From contig JABJBS010000201.1 in NCBI GenBank assembly GCA_018668695.1, positions 1 through 46,655 of the forward strand: 46,655 bases of DNA, given 5' to 3'. The first letter of the stretch is position 1. Every line of letters starts with the position of its first letter. This stretch comes from Deltaproteobacteria bacterium (GTDB lineage Bacteria > Myxococcota > XYA12-FULL-58-9 > JABJBS01). This document shows, piece after piece, positions 36,798 to 43,082 of this stretch. Position numbers and translations under genes: made by a program. The notes beneath the pieces were generated by a model, which was not told the origin of the DNA, ran no database searches, and saw only the letters and a program-made list of their open reading frames with translations.

Positions 36798-37939
36798 CGT
36801 AGTTTCAGTGTTACCAATCCAACCAAGGCAAGGATAATTGAAGCAATCCAAAAGCGAACAATGATTTTCGGTTCTGCCCAGCCTTTGAGTTCAAAGTGGT
36901 GATGAATTGGCGCCATTCGAAAAACGCGTTTTCCGGTAAGCTTAAAGCTGGCCACCTGAGTGATGACACTCAACACTTCCACCAAAAATACACCGTGGAT
37001 AATCGCACTTAAGAATTCATTCTTCGTTAAAACCGCGATGGCTCCGAGTGCCCCTCCAAGGGCCAATGAACCAACATCACCCATGAATACCGAGGCTGGA
37101 AATGTGTTGAACCACAGAAAACCGATGCCTGCTCCGGCAATGGCCGCGCACAAAATCGCCAGCTCACCCATACCTTCGATATGAACCAAGTTGAGATAAT
37201 CAGCTGCGTTGAACTCAACGTAGGTTCCGCCGGCATTCACACCCAAAACCAAACCTGCAATATAGGCCAAGATCATGAAGGTTGATGCGCTCACGACTGT
37301 TGGACCGATGGCCAGTCCATCCAATCCATCGGTGAGGTTCACCGCGTGGGAGGTACCCATGACGACCAAGAATGCGAATGGGACATAAAGCCAGCCAATA
37401 TCAGGGTTAAATAGTTTTACCGAAACAAAAGGAAGTGAAACCGTGGTATCAAGTTCGATGGGTGTTCCAAAATACCCCGCACGCGCAGCCATTAAAAAAG
37501 CTGTCAGTCCACCTAATACAAAAACTTGATAGAGAAGTTTCTTGCGCCCCGGTAGACCCTTGGAGTCTTTCTTTTTTACCTTGCGATAATCATCGATGAA
37601 CCCGATGGCTCCAAAGCCAGCAGTGACCAATAAAACAGCCCAAACAAAAATGTTACTCAAATCAGCCCAGAGTAAAGTGCTGACCATCAAGGTGATTAAA
37701 ATAAAAACACCACCCATCGTAGGAGTGCCTCGTTTAACCTGGTGCTGTTCCGGCGTGTCCTCTCGAACATTGCTGACGCCGTGTTGCTGCGATCTCAAAA
37801 ATTCAATGAAGCGCGGAAATAACCAAAGCATCAAGACCAGAGCCGTGAGCGCAGCCGCAGGGATTCTAAACGAAGGGTATCGAAAAACTCGAAAAGGCCC
37901 AATGACATCGGCCCATGCTGTGAATAGATGATATAACAT
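36794..37939 (-). CDS. mraY: Phospho-MurNAc-pentapeptide translocase
   Basis: The 381-aa membrane protein with about ten segments has GTPTMGGVFIL, FIDDYRKVKKKDSKGL, NLTDGLDGLA (catalytic Asp region), FMGDVGSLALGG and the MAPIHHHFELKGW His triad. It transfers phospho-MurNAc-pentapeptide to undecaprenyl phosphate, forming lipid I. It is slightly longer than usual (about 360). ATG overlaps the murF TGA by one base. Confidence 0.98.
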   Translation of the reverse strand: MLYHLFTAWADVIGPFRVFRYPSFRIPAAALTALVLMLWLFPRFIEFLRSQQHGVSNVREDTPEQHQVKRGTPTMGGVFILITLMVSTLLWADLSNIFVWAVLLVTAGFGAIGFIDDYRKVKKKDSKGLPGRKKLLYQVFVLGGLTAFLMAARAGYFGTPIELDTTVSLPFVSVKLFNPDIGWLYVPFAFLVVMGTSHAVNLTDGLDGLAIGPTVVSASTFMILAYIAGLVLGVNAGGTYVEFNAADYLNLVHIEGMGELAILCAAIAGAGIGFLWFNTFPASVFMGDVGSLALGGALGAIAVLTKNEFLSAIIHGVFLVEVLSVITQVASFKLTGKRVFRMAPIHHHFELKGWAEPKIIVRFWIASIILALVGLVTLKLR

Positions 37940-39354
37940 CAGTTAGTCATTTCCGTATCTAACGCATCAAAAACGCGTTCCATTCGCATTCCTCGCGAAC
38001 CTTTAACCAGCAACCACTCGCCATCTTTCAGCGATTGAGTGAGGTGACCAGTGAGGTCATTCATTTCTTCGAATGCATATCCACGAGCACCGGCTTCTTG
38101 AGCACCGGCAGCTAAATCTTTTGCCCAAGGCCCTAAAGCAAATACTTCATCAATTCCTGATTTCGCCGCATTTTCGCCAACTTGAAAATGCAAGACCGCT
38201 GCTTCATCACCAAGCTCAAACATGGAGCCTAGAGCCGCCAATCGGCGGTTACTTCCCGCGAGAACTTCCATGGTCTTGAAAGCCGCAGACATCGATGCTG
38301 GGTTTGCATTGTAGGAATCATCGATCATATTTCGGCCAGACTGCATAAACACTCGGCACCGACCACCAGGAACCGCTACTCCCGAGAGGCCGGCCTGGAT
38401 AGACGCTGGCCGGGAGCCAAGGGCAAGGGCAACTGAAACCGCCGCTGCAATATTGGAAGCCTGATGAACGCCAAAGAGTGGAACCGGGAAATCAAAACCA
38501 TGGCCCTGAATACTCAACCGTACAATACAGCCTGTTTTCGTACTGATGTATTCTAGAATTCTCACATCTGCAGATCGGCCTTTTCCGAAAGTAAGGCGAG
38601 GGCGAGTTCCCAGTAAAGGCAGGCAAACAGAGCAAATCATCGGGTCATCTAAATTCACCACGCCCACAGCGTTGGGAGGTAAGTTTGCAAAAAGCTCACC
38701 TTTGGCGCGCGCCACGCCTTCGATGCTTCCGAGTCCCTCAAGATGTGCGCCCGCTACATTTGTGATCACTGCCACATCAGGCGCTGCTATCTGAGTTAAC
38801 CGCTCTATCTCACCCGGAATGTTCATGCCCATTTCGACCACTGCGGCCCAGGCATCATTCTTCCAGTCGAGAATTGTTTTTGGAACGCCAATGAGATTGT
38901 TGAAGTTACCGGCAGTTTTGTGAACGGGCCCTCGAGAATTTAATGCCGCCGCCATCAGCTCTTTCGTCGTTGTCTTACCATTGGAGCCGGTAACCGCCGC
39001 AACAGGACGAGCCATTTGTCGTCGGTGGAAAGCAGCAAGCTCCCCGTAACCAAAGAGTGTGTCATCAACGACCAAAGCCGGAACGGGAGAACCCTCTAAA
39101 CTGTGCACAGCATCTGCACCTTGCTTATCAACCATCAAAGCGAGGCAGTTGGAATCGAGAGCTTTTTGGAGAAATTCGTGACCATCGAAATTTTCGCCCC
39201 GAAGGGCAACAAACAAACTTCGTGGTGGTAGGGACCGGGTGTCGGTCCCTACCGATTCAATGTGGGCTGGGAGCCCCCCTCCACGAAGTTCTGCTTGAGT
39301 CGCTCGCGCAAGCTCATCAAGCAGCCATTGATTTGTTTCGATTGTTTCTTGCAT
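37939..39354 (-). CDS. murF: UDP-MurNAc-tripeptide-D-Ala-D-Ala ligase
   Basis: The protein is about 471 aa. It has SVGTDTRSLPPRSLFVALRG in the substrate domain, ATP-binding AVTGSNGKTTTKELM, VEMGMNIPGEIERLTQIA, and DSYNANPASMSAAFKT in the C-terminal part. It adds D-Ala-D-Ala to give the pentapeptide. I used the ATG at 39354; an in-frame TTG 7 codons upstream is possible. No clear Shine-Dalgarno is visible. The preceding gene is the 59-aa ORF, whose stop lies 36 bp upstream. Confidence 0.96.
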   Translation of the reverse strand: MQETIETNQWLLDELARATQAELRGGGLPAHIESVGTDTRSLPPRSLFVALRGENFDGHEFLQKALDSNCLALMVDKQGADAVHSLEGSPVPALVVDDTLFGYGELAAFHRRQMARPVAAVTGSNGKTTTKELMAAALNSRGPVHKTAGNFNNLIGVPKTILDWKNDAWAAVVEMGMNIPGEIERLTQIAAPDVAVITNVAGAHLEGLGSIEGVARAKGELFANLPPNAVGVVNLDDPMICSVCLPLLGTRPRLTFGKGRSADVRILEYISTKTGCIVRLSIQGHGFDFPVPLFGVHQASNIAAAVSVALALGSRPASIQAGLSGVAVPGGRCRVFMQSGRNMIDDSYNANPASMSAAFKTMEVLAGSNRRLAALGSMFELGDEAAVLHFQVGENAAKSGIDEVFALGPWAKDLAAGAQEAGARGYAFEEMNDLTGHLTQSLKDGEWLLVKGSRGMRMERVFDALDTEMTN

Positions 39355-39390
39355 AGTCAATGTATCGTTTCGCAACAGTCAATAACAGAG

Positions 39391-39570
39391 TTAATTACTT
39401 ACTTCACTCTTCTTTTTATCAGTCTCTGTACGAGACATCTCTCTTACGTACTTTTTATCGAGCAGCCCTTGAGGCGCTACGAGGTTACGGGTTCTAAATT
39501 TCTCTTGTTTCGTTTTGATACTCGCCTGAATACGAAAATGCTCAGGCGCTATATACCATGGCTTACTCAT
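39391..39570 (-). CDS. Small basic protein encoded between murE and murF
   Basis: A 59-aa frame starts at ATG 39570 with a strong GGGAGGGG run upstream, and ends with TAA at 39391. It begins MSKPWYIAPEHFRIQASI, is rich in Lys and Arg (14 basic against 7 acidic residues) and has no membrane segment or signal peptide. It fits snugly between murE (stop 39614) and murF with no overlap, on the same strand. I do not recognise the family. A good ribosome binding site, fitting spacing and position inside a conserved operon support a real gene; a regulatory or structural role in PG synthesis would be guesswork. Confidence 0.6.
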   Translation of the reverse strand: MSKPWYIAPEHFRIQASIKTKQEKFRTRNLVAPQGLLDKKYVREMSRTETDKKKSEVSN

Positions 39571-39613
39571 AATAGGAGCCCCCCTCCCTTATGTAACCGC
39601 TTAAAGAAAAAGT

Positions 39614-41083
39614 TTATTCCCGTGCTTTTAAGGCACTTCGTGCTTCTTCTCGGTCGTCAAAATATCGTTTCTCATCTCCAGTTATTTGATAGTCCTCGTG
39701 TCCTTTGCCTGCGATCAATACTGCATCGTTGGGTCCAGCCGCGCGCACGGCTTTTCCAATCGCAAGGGAACGGTCCAATTCTATTTCGTATTCTTTTAGG
39801 TTTCCTAAATGCCCCGAGGCCATCCCACTGGTCACCAAGCCCGGTCTTATCATTTCGGCAATCGCTTCCGGTGATTCACCGCGAGGATTGTCATTGGTTA
39901 CAACTGCACTGTCTGCACCAAGGCCCACTGCTTGTCCCATGGGCTCGCGCTTTTCAGTGTCTCGGTCACCACCGCAACCAAAGACGCAAAAAACATTTCC
40001 ATTCGTAATTTCTCGAACAGCTGTAAGAGCCTTTTCCAAAGCGTCTGGTGTATGGGCGTAATCTACAACCACCAACGGTTCACCAACTTGATTCACTCTC
40101 TCAAGCCGGCCGGGCACCGCGTCCACACTTTCAATACCTTGGCGGATCACATCGTGGCTAAAACCGAGAGCTGCGCCAACACCTGCGGCTGCAAGAATAT
40201 TTTCAACGTTGAAGCCACCAACCATGCGGCTATGAATGTTTAGGCTGTGCCCATCGATAGATACTTGAACTCGGGTGTCGTCGCGGCCCATCTCAATTTG
40301 CTCAGCAACGATTCGAGCTTGTGGATGACCTTTGACACTAAAGCCCCAAACGCCCTCGACGTTTAGCCCGGCTATGGTCGGGTCATCGAGGTTCAACACT
40401 GCCGCTCCGTTTTGCTTCAAACGCTCGTTAATCAAGATAGACTTAGCATCGAAGTATGCATTCATAGAGCCGTGATAATCTAAATGGTCTTGAGTTAAGT
40501 TTGTGAAAACACCAACGTCATACTGGACACCGCCGACTCGATCTTGCTCCAAGGCATGAGAACTCACTTCCATAACCACGCTGGCGACACCCTCCGTAGT
40601 CATCTGTGAAAGCATGGAGGACAGGTCAACAGATTGCGGCGTGGTAAGTCCGGTTTCGATGGTCTTGTTTAGATAACGTGCGCCGAGAGTTCCGATGACG
40701 CCAGGAGCCAGACCAGCTGCCTCAAGAATTCCTTCAACCAAATGGGCGACGGTGGTCTTACCGTTCGTCCCGGTAATCCCTATCATTTTAAGTTTTTGAT
40801 CAGGGCGAGCGTAAAAATTATTGGCCGCAAGCGCCAGGGCTTTACGGGGATGCTTAGCGAGAATGTTCGTAACACCTGGTTGAGCAATGGGATCAGCGCT
40901 GAGAACAGCAACCGCGCCACGTGCAACCGCATCGTTTACATGCGCCTTGCCATCTCCCTGCGAACCCTTAAGTGCTGCAAACAAGAATCCATTTTTCACA
41001 GCTCTGGAATCATAAGCCAATCCAAGAACCTCCACGTCGGGGCCCTCCTGCTTAATATCCTGATCTATGAATAGAGAACTCAC
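39614..41083 (-). CDS. murE: UDP-MurNAc-tripeptide synthetase, meso-DAP type
   Basis: The 489-aa ligase has LAYDSRAVKNGFLFAALKG, ATP-binding GITGTNGKTTVAHLV, LTTPQSVDL, EVSSHALEQDRV, NLTQDHLDYHG, and the DNPRGE motif, which is the mark of meso-diaminopimelate-adding enzymes. Thus the cell wall is probably DAP-type. GTG at 41083 lies 5 nt after GAAGAGG; a TTG 11 codons upstream is rejected. It starts 13 bp after ftsI. Confidence 0.97.
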   Translation of the reverse strand: MSSLFIDQDIKQEGPDVEVLGLAYDSRAVKNGFLFAALKGSQGDGKAHVNDAVARGAVAVLSADPIAQPGVTNILAKHPRKALALAANNFYARPDQKLKMIGITGTNGKTTVAHLVEGILEAAGLAPGVIGTLGARYLNKTIETGLTTPQSVDLSSMLSQMTTEGVASVVMEVSSHALEQDRVGGVQYDVGVFTNLTQDHLDYHGSMNAYFDAKSILINERLKQNGAAVLNLDDPTIAGLNVEGVWGFSVKGHPQARIVAEQIEMGRDDTRVQVSIDGHSLNIHSRMVGGFNVENILAAAGVGAALGFSHDVIRQGIESVDAVPGRLERVNQVGEPLVVVDYAHTPDALEKALTAVREITNGNVFCVFGCGGDRDTEKREPMGQAVGLGADSAVVTNDNPRGESPEAIAEMIRPGLVTSGMASGHLGNLKEYEIELDRSLAIGKAVRAAGPNDAVLIAGKGHEDYQITGDEKRYFDDREEARSALKARE

Positions 41084-41096
41084 TTTCACCTCTTCG

Positions 41097-43082
41097 CTAC
41101 CGTTGTCCCAATACAAGTCGTAATTTATCTACGTCCCCAAAACGTGTTCCAGCTCGTGGCTCTTGCTTCACAACCGCTCCAGATCCAACCAATTCAATAT
41201 GGCTGTCTATTCCCAGCTCTTGATAACGCGCTAAAGATTGACGAGCGCTTAAACCTAAGAACGATGGAATGGTTCCAGAGCTTGGCTTATCCAGATTATC
41301 TTCAGCTGGCTCTGGATTCGTTGAAATAGATGGAAGCTGATTAATTCGCGCGATAGCTGCAGCCACATTCGATGTAGGCCGTGCCTCTTGCTCTAAAGTC
41401 GGTAGAACTTTTAAATGCAACATCGCAGCTGAACCGATTTCACTGAACACAGGACCTGCAACGGCCCCGCCGGTATGTTTGCCGATTGGCTCATCTACTA
41501 CCACCGCAATAACAACCCGTGGATCACGTGAAGGAAGAAATCCTCCAAAGACCGCTCTAAAGAGTTCGTCACTGTAACCCCCTGAAATGGGATCAATCTT
41601 TTGAGCGGTACCCGTTTTGCCTGCTACGCGATAACCCGGCACGGCAGCCAACCGGCCTGTACCGCCCTCGCCCACCACTGCCTCCATCATTCTCACAGTA
41701 TGTGCTACCGCCTCCGCATCGAAGATACGTTTTTCCTGCCGCGGCTGGTCTGATTCTTCGATGCCATCGGGGCCTTCGATGCTATGAATGAGGGTTGGAG
41801 TTTTGTAGACGCCTTCGGCTGCCAATACGCGGTAAGCTCCCGCGAGCTGAAGTAAATTGGAAGCCATTCCGTGTCCGAAGGAAATCGTTGCGCTTGAAGA
41901 TGCAGACCACCGAGAAGGTGCTGCAAGCATACCTAGAGTTTCACCCGGAAAATCAATTCCTGTCCGTGTACCAAAACCTAAGTTGATTAAAGTCGAGTAG
42001 AGTTTTTCGTTACCTAAGGTTTGACCGATTTTCGCGGAGCAAATATTCGATGACTTCTGAATGATCTGAGTAAGCGTCATCCAACCGTATGGCTTATAGT
42101 CGCGAATAGTATGTCCGCCCACTCGCATTTTACCATCTTCACAAAAGAGCTGGTCATCGGCTTTGTATGAACCCTCGTCCAAGGCAGCCGCAACCACAAA
42201 GGGTTTCATCGTTGAACCAGGCTCGAAAAGGTCGACCAAGGCGCGGTTACGGCGGTCACCAGTCTTGGAGCCTGTAATCTTATTTGGGTTGAAGCTTGGA
42301 ACTGTTGCCATGGCTAAGATTTCAGAAGTCTCAACATCAAGCACAACCGCCGAGGCCGATTTTGCATTGGTTTCTTCAATCATCTTCATCAAAGCGACTT
42401 CAGCCACGTGCTGAATATTCAAGTCCAACGTTAACCGAATATCATTGCCCCGCGCTCGGCCTTCTGGATCCAAACCGCCGGCCAAAACCGGACGCCCTCT
42501 GGCGTCTCGTGCCGTCTTAATAATTTGCAGCTGGCCCTTAAGCTTGCCCTCAAGTGCGCGCTCAACCCCTTCAAGGCCTCGGCCATCAATATCTGTAAAT
42601 CCAAGAATCTGAGAGGCTACGTTCTTATTTGGGTAGAAGCGCTTGGCCTCTTGGCGAACAAAAATTCCTGGTAATTTAAGGCTGCGAACTTTCTCTGCGA
42701 TCTCTGGCTGGACTCGGCGCTGCATCCAGGCAAAACGGGTATCAGAACTCAGGCGTTTATAAAGCGCTTCGTAATCTAAGCCGAGAGTTTTGGAGAGAGC
42801 TTTGGCGACCGGGCGTGGATCTTGAATTAAAGAAGGGTCAGCAGCGATGGAAGGAACATCAACTGAAATGGCAAGATTCTGCCCATTGCGGTCGTAAATA
42901 TTTCCACGTTTGGCTGCGATATGAACACTGCGCAGATGCTGACGGTCAGCCATCCCTTTTAAATGTTCGTGCTGAACGACTTGGAGCTGTACAAAACGCG
43001 CTACAATGCAGAGACTCAGAGCAATGAATAGCCCAAAGACAAACTTGAGACGGCCAACTGCTATTTGATGACTACTCGACAT
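41097..43082 (-). CDS. ftsI: Division transpeptidase (class B PBP) with PASTA domain
   Basis: The 661-aa protein has a membrane anchor (about 14-34), a PBP dimerisation domain beginning with KRGNIYDRNGQNLA, a transpeptidase domain with SxxK (EPGSTMKPF), SxN (KSSNICSAK) and KTG (VAGKTGTAQK), and a C-terminal PASTA-like domain of about 60 residues (IPSFLGLSARQSLARYQELG onwards). It crosslinks septal PG with FtsW. The PASTA tail is absent from E. coli FtsI but common in Deltaproteobacteria-type and Gram-positive enzymes. The ATG at 43082 overlaps ftsL by 11 bp and has GGGGGA upstream. Confidence 0.96.
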   Translation of the reverse strand: MSSSHQIAVGRLKFVFGLFIALSLCIVARFVQLQVVQHEHLKGMADRQHLRSVHIAAKRGNIYDRNGQNLAISVDVPSIAADPSLIQDPRPVAKALSKTLGLDYEALYKRLSSDTRFAWMQRRVQPEIAEKVRSLKLPGIFVRQEAKRFYPNKNVASQILGFTDIDGRGLEGVERALEGKLKGQLQIIKTARDARGRPVLAGGLDPEGRARGNDIRLTLDLNIQHVAEVALMKMIEETNAKSASAVVLDVETSEILAMATVPSFNPNKITGSKTGDRRNRALVDLFEPGSTMKPFVVAAALDEGSYKADDQLFCEDGKMRVGGHTIRDYKPYGWMTLTQIIQKSSNICSAKIGQTLGNEKLYSTLINLGFGTRTGIDFPGETLGMLAAPSRWSASSSATISFGHGMASNLLQLAGAYRVLAAEGVYKTPTLIHSIEGPDGIEESDQPRQEKRIFDAEAVAHTVRMMEAVVGEGGTGRLAAVPGYRVAGKTGTAQKIDPISGGYSDELFRAVFGGFLPSRDPRVVIAVVVDEPIGKHTGGAVAGPVFSEIGSAAMLHLKVLPTLEQEARPTSNVAAAIARINQLPSISTNPEPAEDNLDKPSSGTIPSFLGLSARQSLARYQELGIDSHIELVGSGAVVKQEPRAGTRFGDVDKLRLVLGQR

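Follow-up and report, generated by a model that had tools for sequence, protein, structure and literature searches.

A probable small-protein gene between murE and murF in the dcw cluster of one bacterial order

Few bacterial gene clusters are as highly conserved as the dcw cluster, and a short open reading frame (ORF) lying inside it, between murE and murF, raises the question of whether it is an overlooked gene and, if so, what its product might do. The locus is part of a window of 46,655 nucleotides, the whole stretch of DNA that was analysed. The same-strand gene order is mraZ, mraW, ftsL, an ftsI-type PBP gene, murE, the small ORF, murF, mraY, murD, ftsW, murG, murC, ftsQ, ftsA and ftsZ; the names were read from the translations, with murE and murF also compared with homologues. 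The frame was found exactly as the initial annotation had placed it (Table 1), and its minus-strand sequence, 39570-39391, is MSKPWYIAPEHFRIQASIKTKQEKFRTRNLVAPQGLLDKKYVREMSRTETDKKKSEVSN. Within the 259-nt spacer that separates the murE stop from the murF ATG, it starts 43 nt after the end of murE and stops 36 nt before the ATG of murF, or 15 nt before the TTG. The ribosome-binding site had been called strong. A purine run is present, but its GGAGG core ends 12 nt upstream of the ATG, which is a long spacing for a Shine-Dalgarno (SD) site, and this description does not hold. A GTG-started plus-strand ORF of 248 codons (39262-40008) extends over the small ORF as well as the end of murE, and probably arises as a side effect of murE codon usage. 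Because it covers the same stretch, an open frame at this place means little by itself.

Table 1. Features of the murE-murF junction in the window
Feature	Coordinates	Strand	Remarks
Small ORF, 59 aa, MSKPWYIAP...	39391..39570	-	ATG to TAA; syntenic WY[VI].P ORFs in four other genomes of the order
W-Y-I-A-P motif, codons 5-9	39544..39558	-	W, Y and P common to all five ORFs
Purine run AAGGGAGGGGGG, putative ribosome-binding site	39579..39590	-	Upstream of the small-ORF ATG
murE, upstream neighbour	39614..41116	-	Compared with homologues
murF	37939..39354	-	ATG at 39354, TTG at 39375 also possible; compared with homologues

The case for a gene comes from the corresponding junctions of related genomes. 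The junction was read in all eight genomes sampled from the order, including the window (G000); the relatives belong to families other than the window's. With gap lengths counted to the farthest upstream murF start, five of the eight have wide gaps (window, 238 nt; G007, 251 nt; G005, 188 nt; G001, 267 nt; G006, 193 nt), and the other three measure -4 (G004), -47 (G003) and 72 nt (G002). W-Y-[VI]-x-P is encoded on the operon strand in all five wide gaps and is absent from the remaining three junctions. The same-strand ORFs in these gaps are 55-83 codons long: 59 aa in the window, 68 in G007, 58 in G005, 83 in G001 and 55 in G006. Their starts overlap the murE stop by 4 nt in G007 (ATGA) and G001 (GTGA) and follow the end of murE by 8 nt in G005 and 22 nt in G006. 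Since four other genomes of the same order, from other families, carry a motif-bearing ORF in the same gap, the frame is conserved among these relatives, and the synteny comparison that had been proposed supports the suggestion of an overlooked gene.

Junctions were also examined at 107 murE loci: 80 named loci and 27 from 28 genomes drawn from a 58-genome set, one of the 28 (G018) giving no murE match. No murF was found downstream in 26 of the 107. Among the 81 that remain, the gap is 60 nt or less in 54, 61-120 nt in 3 and more than 120 nt in 9, with 13 overlapping and 2 fused, which bears out the earlier remark that murE and murF are usually adjacent or fused. The nine loci with the widest gaps are those of the five order members and four others (L023, L047, L050 and L066), and the motif is absent anywhere in the latter four loci. 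At the phylum level, all 19 murE loci read outside the order are tight (gap of 33 nt or less, or overlapping).

Searches with a family profile gave a similar distribution. When the family HMM was run against 195 genomes of the phylum, E values of 7.5e-17 or below were obtained, among the matches listed, for the five ORFs only, all of which are in the model; at least 136 of the 195 genomes have some match at E <=1. The best non-family matches listed have E values of 3.7e-5, with two in-frame stops, and 8.3e-5, with no stop, covering model positions 18-59 only and lacking the motif. Twenty-five weaker matches examined as loci (L119-L143) have neither WY[VI].P nor murE or murF nearby. The profile was also run on 43 of the 80 genomes that supplied the named loci and gave two matches at E <=0.01, both with in-frame stops. 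Overall, no convincing family member outside the order was found among the matches listed from the 195 phylum genomes or in these 43 of 80 genomes.

Comparison of the translated ORFs points to conservation at the protein level among the relatives. In the alignment, the G006 protein is 39% identical to that of G007 and 37% identical to that of G005. In leave-one-out HMM searches of 23,826 segments, G006 (E 4.4e-6), G007 (1.9e-4), G001 (0.001) and, weakly, G005 (0.016) each ranked ahead of all non-training segments. A second block, a hydrophobic strand followed by P-x-A, reads LFLHPTAG in G006, VFVHPGAG in G007 and LLIRPAAF in G005; its recovery against 15,007 background placements gave 0.0004, 0.0005 and 0.0036, respectively. 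On the same background the second block is not significant in G001 (0.32) or in the window (0.21). All five are small proteins of hydrophilic character (GRAVY -0.22 to -1.12), the window's being at the hydrophilic end (-1.12) with a predicted charge of +6.6. These two values make a membrane segment unlikely, as had been stated at the outset. The basic character noted at the same time holds for the window protein and does not extend to the family: the other charges are +4.6, +2.5, +0.7 and -0.5, and binding through general basicity is therefore no family trait.

The window ORF is joined to this family only by its gap position, its strand and the motif near its start. It failed the whole-length leave-one-out match (rank 388, E 150), and thus no whole-length signal joins it to the other four. 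The start-proximal block, KPWYIAPEH, spans codons 3-11; its W and Y fall at residues 5 and 6, the positions they also occupy in G001 and G006. When the nine-residue block was scored by leave-one-out, 18 of 1,339,852 9-mers did as well as the window's or better, namely the 4 training blocks, the window block itself and 13 others; by our own arithmetic, the chance expectation of such a 9-mer in the coding strand of the gap is ~0.003. The expression WY[VI].P was composed with the alignment already in view. The looser W[YF][VIL].P has 9 matches outside the family in 113 loci, 4 of them strictly WY[VI].P. A single-sequence search of the 58 genomes with the window ORF recovered only itself below E 0.03. 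Genes of 55-83 codons with a conserved block of ~9 residues are thus missed by single-sequence search and can be found through syntenic gaps.

The family is undescribed in Pfam, NCBIfam, PHROGs and PDB sequence searches: none of the five proteins has a match in Pfam, NCBIfam or PDB sequences, and the PHROGs search gave one weak match (phrog_12835, E 0.43) for one of the five, not the window's. No description of this family was found in the literature covered, subscription journals being mostly outside that coverage. For the window protein AlphaFold2 predicted no fold (pLDDT 58.7, pTM 0.17), and for the G006 protein it gave a weak model (pLDDT 65.3, pTM 0.46). The G006 model has strands at residues 6-9, 28-32 and 37-42, the first coinciding with W-Y-V-V-P and the next with the second block. 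A fold search with this model gave nothing at E <=0.001, the best E being 6.0. The N-terminal strand of NusG also opens W-Y-V-V, and the likeness is a short string of this kind near the N-terminus; the five small proteins differ in having no Pfam, NCBIfam or PDB sequence match, and they are too short for an NGN domain.

Taken together, the ORFs of the relatives are very likely real genes, and the window ORF is probably a real gene as well. It is likely to be a member of the relatives' family, and fairly likely to be translated and functional in its source organism. As for its role, we tentatively consider the product a lineage-specific, fast-evolving soluble small protein that is encoded in the dcw operon and made with MurE, and that may act at the Mur ligase step. 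In outline, the gene, so far seen in one bacterial order only, sits at the murE-murF junction of the dcw operon, and its product would be made together with MurE and MurF. The start-stop overlaps in G007 and G001 have the arrangement that translational coupling would predict; the window ORF has an SD-like site ahead of it in place of such an overlap. The protein would stay in the cytoplasm, where its N-terminal W-Y-V-x-P strand may dock onto MraY or one of the Mur ligases; the second strand, which ends [HR]-P-x-A in three members, may share in the docking, and docking would tune UDP-MurNAc-pentapeptide synthesis. The partner is placed among MurE, MurF and MraY on account of operon position alone. 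A more speculative extension is that these proteins, encoded in the dcw operon, are small cytoplasmic regulators of the Mur ligase pathway and make up a new family. They would bind MurE, MurF or MraY through the W-Y-V-x-P strand, and the family would have arisen in one order and then disappeared from some of its species. If a small protein has been kept at a dcw junction across an order, it offers a lead to an unstudied control point in peptidoglycan precursor synthesis.

Of the alternatives, the one that survives best, as a minority possibility, is that the ORF is cargo at a permissive site, the murE-murF junction accepting lineage-specific genes with functions unrelated to the cell wall. Its distribution is patchy. 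The junctions of G002, G003 and G004 lack the ORF, and the family HMM found no match in the G004 genome at E <0.9, or in the G002 and G003 genomes at E <=1, among the matches listed. G004, whose -4 overlap resembles many loci outside the order, is of the same genus as G007, which carries the ORF; the gene is thus dispensable over evolution. The window ORF is also AT-rich (GC 0.406 vs 0.503 for its locus). Precedent exists in Neisseria, where dca is reportedly linked to competence, going by the title of one paper. In Neisseria the interval from murE to murF is occupied by dca or by a hypothetical gene, the latter in lactamica (PMC1538595). To that extent the junction is a known site for lineage-specific genes, and the early impression that a gene there is unusual has to be given up. 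The two cases are alike in that an extra lineage-specific gene occupies the same dcw junction and is absent or replaced in some relatives. They differ in that the present family consists of ORFs of 55-83 codons in another bacterial group, and no sequence relation is claimed. Against cargo, the motif, its place and its strand are the same in four families of the order, which favours vertical keeping over replacement, and in G001, G005, G006 and G007 the GC of the ORF differs from that of its locus by no more than 0.03. In a MurE tree of 17 rows, the eight order members form a 100/100 clade, the forks inside it being mostly unresolved. Presence of the ORF takes three changes on this tree, two of them forced by well-supported branches, and 43 of 500 shuffles were as low; among other histories, the three changes fit one gain and two losses.

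It is also conceivable, though doubtful, that the ORF is a translated leader, in which the act of translation and not the protein delivers ribosomes to a murF that lacks an SD site and so sets the level of MurF relative to MurE. Inspection by eye revealed no SD-like site before either murF start in the window. The distance from the ORF stop to the murF ATG is 36 nt there and 3 nt in G005, and the C-terminal halves of the five ORFs are poorly conserved. However, several other dcw genes of the window (e.g., mraY, murD and ftsZ) also lack a clear SD-like site, and the missing site before murF is therefore weak evidence. In G007 the stop lies 78 nt from the murF ATG, or 48 nt from a TTG. Moreover, a pure leader would have no need to keep W-Y-V-x-P and a second block at the level of amino acids, as the relatives have done.

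A small functional protein, the reading preferred here, is harder to defend for the window than for its relatives. The window ORF could be a decayed remnant that keeps the family start and the N-terminal motif while the rest has drifted, and this we regard as unlikely. Its leave-one-out rank, the lack of a significant second block and the lack of a predicted fold are all in line with decay, as is its codon usage. The score per codon is -0.254, lower than that of another of its frames (-0.217). The mean for in-frame gene pieces is 0.135, with 0.6% of 166 as low as the window ORF; among 830 out-of-frame or antisense pieces, 53% reach the score of the ORF or exceed it. The codon usage thus resembles out-of-frame DNA and not coding sequence, and short AT-rich genes may give such non-coding-like scores. 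On the other side, the frame is intact over 59 codons and is preceded by an SD-like site. When the 259-nt gap was put through 10,000 dinucleotide shuffles, 3 of them gave an ORF of at least 59 codons with a five-base SD core within 20 nt, a limit chosen after the real site was known.

A chance ORF in a non-coding spacer would account for the same codon usage and for the missing whole-length profile match, and ORFs of such length arose in 111 of the 10,000 shuffles when no SD core was demanded, but it is quite improbable, given that every one of the order's five wide gaps has a syntenic ORF with the motif close to its start. An RNA element at the spacer was rejected: the window has no Rfam match at gathering scores; the SD-like run may pair with a CTCC just downstream, the SD/ATG hairpin folding no better than shuffles (z -0.06); and promoter-like sites (1 vs a shuffle mean of 0.7) and terminator-like sites (1 vs 0.4) are near shuffled counts.

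Other variants of the junction were seen along the way. In one family, MurE proteins have acidic-rich C-terminal tails beyond the match, of 108 (G023), 90 (G008) and 43 residues (G017), at loci L092, L095 and L096; fusion of the ORF to MurE was considered for these relatives and rejected, the tails being without the WY motif. At L042 and L059, murE and murF are fused into one ORF. In a Candidatus Binatia genome (L050), a gap of 1086 nt between murE and murF contains what reads as an mraY-like frame. The 72-nt gap of G002 (L093) contains a possible remnant of the family, a 14-codon micro-ORF, MMKTYAKTDGGVTF.
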